DNA of 64,000 nt from Rhodothermales bacterium. GTDB lineage: Bacteria > Bacteroidota > Rhodothermia > Rhodothermales > UBA10348. This document shows, piece after piece, positions 34,713 to 36,382 of this stretch. The DNA lies in contig JAEPNP010000004.1 of NCBI GenBank assembly GCA_017643395.1, forward strand, positions 62,001-126,000. Reading direction: 5' to 3'. The first letter of the stretch is position 1. Each line of letters begins with the position of its first letter. A program made the translations under genes and the position numbers. The notes under the pieces were generated by a model. The model was not told where the DNA came from. It ran no database searches and saw nothing but the letters and a program-made list of their open reading frames with translations.

Positions 34713-34743
34713 TTGACCACCCTCAGTCGATCACGCTATTTTG
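34713..34743 (+). promoter_or_regulatory. Promoter of tRNA-Arg
   Basis: TTGACC (34713-34718) is followed 18 bases later by TATTTTG (34737-34743), close to the Bacteroidota TAnnTTTG box, and the mature tRNA begins eight bases further on. Position and both boxes support it. Confidence 0.65.
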
Positions 34744-34750
34744 CCCATCT

Positions 34751-34824
34751 GCGCTTGTAGCTCAGTTGGATAGAGCGTTGGATTCCGGTTCCAAAGGCCG
34801 GGGGTTCGAATCCTCCCAAGCGCG
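34751..34824 (+). tRNA. tRNA-Arg (anticodon CCG)
   Basis: The cloverleaf closes fully. Acceptor stem GCGCTTG pairs with CAAGCGC, the D arm is GCTCAGTTGGATAGAGC, the anticodon stem TTGGA/TCCAA holds the loop TTCCGGT with anticodon CCG (codon CGG), and the T arm is GGGGG-TTCGAAT-CCTCC. The discriminator is G and no CCA is encoded. Its 3' 16 bases recur 144 bp downstream at 34953-34968. Confidence 0.95.
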
Positions 34825-34825
34825 C

Positions 34826-34868
34826 ATGGTGAAGCCCGATCCGCCGTAGGCGGGTTGGGCTTTGCCAT
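34826..34868 (+). terminator. 20-bp hairpin after tRNA-Arg (unit 1)
   Basis: Twenty consecutive pairs (G-U allowed) close a 3-base GTA loop, beginning ATGGTGAAGCCC and ending GGGCTTTGCCAT. ATTTTG follows. It starts two bases after the tRNA and is likely its terminator or 3'-processing structure. Confidence 0.75.
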
Positions 34869-34969
34869 ATTTTGCTGGGCGGATGAGAACCCCAACCAGG
34901 GTTCGTGACGAGCGGCTGCGAAGCAGACGCGACTCACGAGCCGAAGGCGAGTAATCCTCCCAAGCGCGC

Positions 34970-35010
34970 TGCTAAATCCTTGTCCGCCATCGGCGGGCGA
35001 GGATTTTGCA
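34970..35010 (+). terminator. 18-bp hairpin of unit 2
   Basis: The stem reads TGC-T-AAATCCTTGTCCGCC against GGCGGGCGAGGATTT-T-GCA with a single T-T mismatch and a 3-base ATC loop; TTTTG follows. The inner CCGCC/GGCGG is shared with unit 1 while the outer stem has different bases, yet remains paired. Confidence 0.75.
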
Positions 35011-35093
35011 TTTTGTCTGGGCGGATGAGAACCCCACCAGGGTTCGTGACGAGCGGCTGCGAAGCAGACGCGACTCACGAGCCGAAGGCGAGT

Positions 35094-35419
35094 GGCCGAG
35101 CAGACGCGACCTGCAGCATGACGCAGGTCCCATCACCCGAGCCGCAGCGACCAAGGGCCGCACCCGGAATCCAAAAGGGTGTGTCAAGGAACTGCCCGAT
35201 CCGTGACGAACTTGGTGCCAGCGTCCTCCCTTCCTCCCTCCGGGGCGCGGTCGTACCAGTATTTGTCGCTTTCCTGCTGCTCGACCTCCGATTCGTGACC
35301 GATGTCCGATTTCTGGTAGCCCGAATTCTCGCTTCGGGACCCAGATTGAGACATCTTCTCACCGCTCGATTTCGCGCCGGTCTCATGGCCGGCACCACGA
35401 AACCTCTCTGCGTCCCCAG
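35094..35419. other. Non-coding stretch with degenerate third repeat copy
   Basis: From 35094 to about 35156 fragments of the 76-bp module recur in order (GAGCAGACGCGAC, then CACCCGAGCCGCAGCGACCAAGG), interrupted by a small CTGC/GCAG hairpin. The remaining 260 bases to galM hold no gene or clear signal that I can recognise. Confidence 0.5.
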
Positions 35420-36382
35420 GTGAGACTCGATCGTATCCAATTGCGGCTTCCGAATGGCTTCTGCGCAGAGCTGACCAGTCTGGGCGCCACCCTGATGGGC
35501 CTCTATGTGCCCGGAGTCTCCCACTCCCTGGTGCTGGGCCTGCCGGAGCCGGAAGACTACGCGGGGCCGCACCCTTTCATCGGTTCGACGGTCGGGCGAT
35601 ACGCCAATCGCATCGCACACGGCCGTTTCTCGCTGGATGGCAGGGACTATGTGCTGCCGACAAACAACGCACGGCACCATCTGCACGGCGGGCCGGAAGG
35701 ATTTCATGCCCAGATCTGGCGCACGCTCTCCCAATCCGATCACGAGGTCGTGTTTGCTCACACCAGCCCGCACGGGCACGCTGGATATCCCGGCAGACTC
35801 GACGCCCGGGCCACGTATCGCCTCGAGGAGCCTTTTCGGCTTGTGATCGAATTTGAGGCACGCTCCGACCGGCCCACTCCGGTTTCATTGACGCACCATG
35901 CCTACTTCAACCTGGCGGGAGCCGGCGACGTACGCGATCACGAGCTGACACTGTCCGCCACACACTACACCCCGACGGATGAAGAACTCATCCCCACCGG
36001 TGAGCGGGCGCACGTGGCGGGCACGGTGCTCGACTTTCGTGAGCCGGCGGTGATCGCGGATCGCGTCGGCGCTGAGGGCCTCGACCACAATCTGGTGCTC
36101 CCTCCGGATGCCTGCGTTCACGCCCGGCTGCTTCACCGGGAATCCGGAGTGGGCCTCACTATCCGGACCAGCGAGCCGGCCATGCAGATTTACACCGGCC
36201 AGCACCTGGATGACCCGGCCGCCGGCGCCCACTTCCCGGCCTACGCCGGTCTGTGCCTGGAGCCGCAACAGTATCCGGACGCGCCGAATCAGCCCGCCTT
36301 CCCATCGCCCGTACTCAGGCCGGGTGATGTCTACCGAAGTCGAACGGTCTACGAGGCCTCAGCCAACGCCCCCGCGAACTGA
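35420..36382 (+). CDS. galM: Aldose 1-epimerase (mutarotase)
   Basis: The 320-residue enzyme interconverts alpha and beta anomers of galactose or glucose. Seen are STVGRYANRIAHGRFSLDGRDY, the NNARHHLHGGPEGFH segment with the first catalytic-site histidine, LTHHAYFNLAG with the second, and the C-terminal CLEPQQYPDAPNQPAFPSPVLRPGD, whose glutamate is the catalytic base. The start is a GTG that gives a conventional N-terminus. No other Leloir gene is in the window; a GH53 galactanase lies 27 kb away. Its last 34 bases overlap the convergent symporter gene. Confidence 0.95.
   Translation: MRLDRIQLRLPNGFCAELTSLGATLMGLYVPGVSHSLVLGLPEPEDYAGPHPFIGSTVGRYANRIAHGRFSLDGRDYVLPTNNARHHLHGGPEGFHAQIWRTLSQSDHEVVFAHTSPHGHAGYPGRLDARATYRLEEPFRLVIEFEARSDRPTPVSLTHHAYFNLAGAGDVRDHELTLSATHYTPTDEELIPTGERAHVAGTVLDFREPAVIADRVGAEGLDHNLVLPPDACVHARLLHRESGVGLTIRTSEPAMQIYTGQHLDDPAAGAHFPAYAGLCLEPQQYPDAPNQPAFPSPVLRPGDVYRSRTVYEASANAPAN

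Follow-up and report, generated by a model that had tools for sequence, protein, structure and literature searches.

The first description of tRNA-linked repeats (TLRs), in E. coli, dates from 1978. In the accessible parts of their paper, Stenum et al. place 22 TLRs in ten E. coli loci and give the 3' end of the element as 18-19 bp identical to the upstream tRNA or rRNA; by these authors' account, TLRs were without known function before that study (PMC8144298). At rrnA, rrnB and rrnD the TLR lies between two terminators, T1 and T2, of which T1 stops 87% of transcripts, and read-through of T1 gives the small RNA RrB, whose 3' end is near the repeated tail and is credited by the authors to RNase E (PMC8144298). 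The E. coli rrnB sequence confirms the order 5S, T1, TLR, tail, T2. In the literature that could be searched, where sources were available in part and subscription journals lay mostly outside the search so that a wider account may exist, the treatment of TLR/RtT elements is confined to Enterobacteria and Pasteurellaceae (PMC8144298, PMC4986893, PMC2965389, PMC2658671, PMC7657543, PMC9245011); a further paper, in its accessible text, names rttR only (PMC12306157).

We analysed a stretch of 64,000 nucleotides from a Rhodothermales bacterium (the window) and found two tandem units 3' of a tRNA-Arg(CCG) gene, each made up of the last 17 nt of the tRNA, a hairpin (H1 or H2) and a module of about 80 nt, in the order tRNA, H1, module 1, second tail, H2, module 2. 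We consider it very probable that H1 and H2 are intrinsic terminators of tRNA-Arg(CCG) and that they frame a TLR (Rfam RtT) in a partly duplicated array. An initial annotation had drawn attention to the hairpins and modules and had passed over the tRNA gene, the duplicated 17-nt tail and the T-rich sequence after the hairpins; it is the tRNA and the duplicated tail that identify the element. Like the TLRs of E. coli, including that of rrnB, the array lies directly 3' of a tRNA or rRNA gene, and the 3' end of its first unit repeats the tail of that gene in 17 of 17 nt. The second unit has no such end: module 2 shares GCGAGT with the end of module 1 and then passes into other sequence with no third tail, so it lacks the TLR hallmark. 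The near-identity of the two modules that had been described earlier is borne out over 62 nt at 98% and 25 nt at 92% identity, at an offset of 141-142. The 5' strand of arm P1 pairs at 7 of 8 positions with ATCCTCCC (34954-34961) of the second tail and is an imperfect inverted copy of the T-arm of tRNA-Arg(CCG) itself, and the spacing from the tRNA to GGAT, 55 nt, is close to the median over loci of 52. The tRNA gene was matched in all 60 genomes searched, that of the window included, some of which matches may be to another tRNA. Open frames at 34731-35078 (minus) and 34905-35423 (plus) cross the tRNA and modules and are probably spurious; one of them reads LGRIRTPGLWNRNPTLYPTELQA, which is the reverse strand of the tRNA.

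Features of the tRNA-Arg(CCG) locus, in window coordinates, with the basis for each assignment
Feature	Position	Strand	Basis
Candidate sigma-70-like promoter for tRNA-Arg(CCG) (TTGACC, 18, TATTTT)	34713..34742	+	Consensus scan, weak: 1 found vs 0.2 expected
tRNA-Arg, anticodon CCG	34751..34825	+	Rfam tRNA 68.4 bits, ARAGORN; best matches in relatives 87-100% identical
tRNA 3' tail, copy 1 (AATCCTCCCAAGCGCGC)	34809..34825	+	Direct repeat D4
H1, probable intrinsic terminator 1 (T1-like), then ATTTT	34826..34868	+	Fold, terminator scan, homology to congeners' terminator
TLR/RtT module 1	34873..34952	+	R1 43.6 bits, E 1.1e-8, match 34872-34967; RF00391 29.7 bits, gathering 45
Arm P1, 5' strand GGGCGGAT	34877..34884	+	Sequence, RF00391 and R1 alignments, covariation over other loci
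tRNA 3' tail, copy 2 (TLR hallmark)	34953..34969	+	17 nt, 100% identical to copy 1
H2, probable intrinsic terminator 2 (T2-like)	34970..35010	+	Fold, terminator scan, alignment with congeners
TLR/RtT module 2, no tail copy after	35011..35093	+	Direct repeat; R1 27.5 bits, E 1.2e-4

The Rfam RtT model (RF00391) matches both units over its full length and below its gathering score of 45 bits, at 29.7 and 21.3 bits (E 8e-4 and 0.09). A covariance model, R1, was built from a scan of 84,980 species genomes with a pattern drawn from the window, the tRNA-Cys copy of genome G021 and the E. coli element. The scan gave at least 119 stretches, to which four viral loci were added. Among the listed stretches and the viral loci there were 156 matches, and for 100 of them the 150 nt upstream include a tRNA or tmRNA gene; setting aside one without a readable T-arm and three repeats left 96 distinct comparable instances, of which 70 have a second tail. 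A similarity filter reduced these 70 to 28, and the omission of five long or odd sequences to 23, which were aligned with four window-side sequences (the window twice, its genome's own tRNA-Val copy and G021). R1 itself consists of 22 sequences, one more having been dropped as misaligned, and none is from the window genome, although the pattern that gathered them was partly derived from the window. In the window R1 picks out modules 1 and 2 at the scores tabulated, and its third match has E 1.1. Across the whole genome its three best matches are the two modules and, ranked between them at 29.7 bits, a copy behind tRNA-Val(CAC); the fourth has E 0.19. The tRNA-Val(CAC) copy carries 17 nt of its own tRNA as second tail, with a strong hairpin in between. 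A model that excludes the window genome thus shows the modules to belong, by similarity of sequence and structure, to an RtT/TLR-type family. A weak RtT-like match was seen elsewhere in the genome (L213, G000 C1:702605-702695; 22.1 bits, E 0.19); no tRNA lies within 1.5 kb of it, but it is preceded by a hairpin and flanked by tail-like stretches, and it is possibly an orphan unit.

R1 matches all four RtT copies of E. coli tyrT and gives no match to the rrnB TLR, so the comparison with rrnB rests on layout, not on sequence. In that layout the window resembles rrnA, rrnB and rrnD, where the element also sits between two terminators of different sequence. It differs from the E. coli TLRs in following a tRNA-Arg gene (5S at rrnB) in a genome far from Enterobacterales, in its 17-nt tail, in having a second module without a tail and in its divergent core sequence. 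With the RtT elements of tyrT and rttR it shares the order GGATGAGAACC ... GGTTCG ... CGAGCG ... GAGTAATCC and an outer stem between arm and tail, and the E. coli K-12 tyrT/tyrV/rttR sequence runs the same way: tRNA, spacer, GGGGAAGGGTGAGAACC ... AAGGTTCGA ..., tRNA tail. In the window, however, a strong terminator precedes each module, whereas tyrT has a longer spacer with no obvious terminator. H1 and H2 in turn resemble the intrinsic terminators of other tRNA genes in being stable G+C-rich hairpins with T-rich sequence immediately 3' of the tRNA; they differ from these in that the hairpin has been duplicated together with the tRNA tail, and in that the two copies are alike in their modules but not in their stems.

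The hairpins had been located and their pairs counted correctly at the outset, and their folds are more stable than those of all 200 shuffled sequences: H1 has 20 continuous pairs, 4 of them G.U, and a 3-nt loop (-35.1 kcal/mol, z -7.8), and H2 has 18 pairs and a single mismatch (-28.2 kcal/mol, z -6.1). A terminator scan for a G+C-rich hairpin followed by a T run recovers both and reports three sites in all, where shuffles give 0.7; neither T run is long (ATTTTGC after H1, TGCATTTTG after H2). The statement that the two stems share only CCGCC/GGCGG was too strong, as 27 of 41 aligned positions are identical. When H1, H2 and the single terminators of two congeners (G001 and G002, which have no clear module) are aligned, the share of paired cells is 96.1%, compared with 85.9% in shuffles, and both sides have changed in 8 of 20 pairs; neither value is reached in 500 shuffles, and slid controls give 38-51% paired cells and at most one pair changed on both sides. 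With only four sequences and a structure taken from H1 this is support and not proof, but it bears out the earlier proposal that pairing was retained through changes on both arms. By this alignment H1, H2 and the terminators of the two congeners are homologous, with pairing kept through paired changes. H1 is identical to the G001 terminator at 29 of 38 positions and H2 at 30 of 38, so that each is about as close to the congener as to the other, and neither can be called native or foreign; a native H2 beside a foreign H1 was rejected because both resemble the congeners' terminator about equally.

We inspected by eye the 330 nt after the orthologous tRNA in 30 loci (L016-L045, L016 being the window). 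A hairpin and T run directly 3' of the tRNA were seen in many of them, uncounted, and by the same inspection the stems differ in sequence between genera. Many other tRNA genes of the window genome also have such 3' hairpins (33 tRNA genes are listed; Rfam finds 42 tRNAs). That the hairpins are functional RNAs in their own right, acting as processing guides or small RNAs and not as terminators, would suit their great stability and the retention of structure by paired changes; their terminator position behind a tRNA, the T runs, the unrelated terminator stems that fill the same place in other genera and the location of the conserved sequence at other loci in the module and not the hairpin make this very improbable. 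H1 and H2 are best read as terminators. The suggestion of a functional RNA fold that accompanied their first description stands in its terminator form, and the analogy of E. coli rrnB, as reported in the accessible text of Stenum et al. (PMC8144298), makes a small RNA from between the two hairpins plausible.

The TLR reading explains the presence of two terminators of different sequence behind one tRNA, and the same anatomy can be followed at other loci. In 70 of 96 comparable loci the tRNA's own tail is found again downstream (12 nt, exact), while tests with non-cognate tails gave 2 such cases in 8384. Of 92 loci, 55 have a terminator between tRNA and module, and of 67 loci, 38 have one that follows the second tail, in each case against 3.3% of shuffles; by the same definition it is absent between tRNA and module in 37 of the 92 comparable loci, including 10 of 11 tRNA-Tyr loci assessed. 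The two terminators are coupled: across 63 loci, four further loci not being assessable for T1, 36 have both, 4 have T1 only, 1 has T2 only and 22 have neither (Fisher p 6e-12), where the 'second' terminator in an array is often the next unit's first. Arm and tail also vary together. At five positions outside the conserved GGAT that were not fixed by the search pattern, 75.6% of arm-tail cells are paired against 47.9% in shuffles, and 46 cells have changed on both sides; none of 500 shuffles reaches this number or the paired share, and slid controls give 34-48%. This test used 27 rows, including module 2 and L154, which have no aligned tail, and the rows are related to differing degrees while the shuffles ignore kinship. 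In a Gastranaerophilales genome, two tRNA-Ser genes that differ in their tails are followed by cores identical at 61 of 63 positions, and the arm at each gene, as judged by eye, fits the tail of that gene.

These data bear on whether the array is functional. A non-functional tandem duplication, in which only H1 matters and H2 and the modules are debris, would account for a module 2 without a tail copy and for congeners without modules, and would agree with the absence of a known TLR function before the work of Stenum et al., as the accessible part of that paper has it (PMC8144298). Since the pairing of H2 has been kept, T1 and T2 are coupled across loci and arm and tail covary, we regard this explanation as unlikely. 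The tRNA itself does not need the unit, because the congeners have a terminator without a clear module. If the terminator-framed TLR works as rrnB does, most transcripts would stop at H1, a minority would read through and stop at H2, and the read-through RNA would be cut near the second tail, leaving a short module RNA comparable to RrB.

The divergence of the stems beside near-identical modules had been taken as strong evidence of selection for structure. Two hairpins alone do not support that conclusion: H1 and H2 differ from each other as much as from another species' terminator, and near-identical modules with differing stems need modules that have been homogenised, recombined or strongly constrained, and not only stems that evolve faster. 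Very fast stem evolution unique to the window was rejected, as 7 of 31 neighbouring unit pairs elsewhere (L089, L105 twice, L109 twice, L128 and L141) also combine spacers less than 90% identical with modules 93-100% identical, these identities being for aligned parts only with ends free. Two pairs (L157 and L199) show a mild opposite trend, with identical spacers and modules at 91-93%. In Enterobacter pulveris (L105) spacers 1 and 3 match and spacer 2 differs, a pattern consistent with exchange between units through their tails and modules, and stems and modules would look no different if the modules were under constraint. Unequal recombination through the tails and modules that the units share is the probable route by which the window array grew; it would have homogenised the modules while each terminator stem drifted, the sole demand on it being that it still pair.

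The window locus is a further example of a TLR/RtT element, and the same anatomy is found behind tRNA and tmRNA genes in many phyla and on contigs with archaeal genes. Among the matches listed, the 100 upstream genes are tRNA-Pro (37), Lys (20), Ser (13), Tyr (12), Gln (7), Cys (3), Leu (3) and Gly (1), and tmRNA (4); by eye, the other 56 matches listed are mostly later array units or contig ends, with a few unexplained. Titles among the matches listed include Enterobacterales, other Proteobacteria, Verrucomicrobia, Lentisphaerae, Kiritimatiellia, Bacteroidetes, Gemmatimonadetes, Saccharibacteria, Gastranaerophilales and archaeal MAGs. The Rfam model, too, extends to some non-enterobacterial phyla, RtT being found at gathering level in 4 of 20 non-enterobacterial loci tested. 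Closer to the window the element is sporadic, as R1 matches at E 0.01 or better occur in 5 of the 195 genomes of the class. Of the matches outside the window genome, three are behind tRNA-Cys (L214, which is the same place as L082, L215 and L216, the last without a clear second tail in the stretch examined), and the fourth (L217), with no tRNA nearby, has the look of a chance match.

As to the source of the unit, a mobile repeat dispersed in the window genome was rejected because the unit is at one locus only at the DNA level, and a plasmid source because no match was found in plasmids. A phage source was rejected too: among the best 20 of 197 phage records the matches are only to the tRNA part. 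Exact long module strings were absent from the genome and viral collections. The sporadic presence of the element, a unit boundary that coincides exactly with the tail and the near-identical Gastranaerophilales cores with arms matching their own tails would all be expected of a site-specific DNA element that inserts and excises at the T-loop, with the tail as attachment core and the terminator as cargo that keeps the tRNA expressed. No recombinase, however, is encoded in the unit, nor was one linked to it in this analysis, many Enterobacterales have the elements behind the same types of tRNA (Pro, Lys, Tyr), as in vertical descent, and homologous recombination between repeats accounts for tandem growth without an integrase, so that we judge such an element improbable. 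In two viral contigs (L206 and L209) the contig end lies at most about 110 nt from an RtT-like element beside a tRNA-Ser-like tail, as expected if the element integrates there.

It is conceivable, although we hold the proposal in its full breadth to be doubtful, that TLR/RtT elements form one family over bacteria and DPANN-type archaea that moves between tRNA and tmRNA genes, its 5' arm and 3' tail at each new site being copies of the local gene's 3' end or rewritten to match it; the window genome would then have one such element behind tRNA-Arg and another behind tRNA-Val, both having an arm that matches their own tRNA and a terminator that separates tRNA from module. The breadth of the distribution, together with the matching of arms to tails, is the interesting part of the result. 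If TLRs do span phyla behind tRNA, tmRNA and rRNA genes, with an arm that tracks the tail and with coupled terminators, their function and spread become testable by comparison and not in E. coli alone. MAG contamination as the origin of the archaeal loci was rejected, given that the ribosomal protein L13 at L183 is of archaeal/eukaryotic type and above its cut-off; best hits of the CCA enzyme and KH protein on L136 and of the UDG on L159 are archaeal and below their own cut-offs.

Some further observations concern individual loci. R1 finds RtT-like elements behind tmRNA genes or tmRNA-like tails at L088, L091, L103, L106, L145 and L185 (19-37 bits). One Nanoarchaeota MAG (L134, L136, L180 and L183) has four RtT-like elements behind different tRNA tails, whose arms fit the tail poorly beyond GGAT, and L159 and L177 are listed beside these four. 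Downstream of the array, at 35185-35220 of the window, we noted an intergenic motif, CAAKGAACTG followed by a spacer and TGCCA, that is conserved 3' of tRNA-Arg(CCG); it was found in 13 of the 30 loci searched (the window, L016, and L019, L020, L022-L025, L027, L031-L033, L035 and L039), often after a purine-rich GAGGGG.
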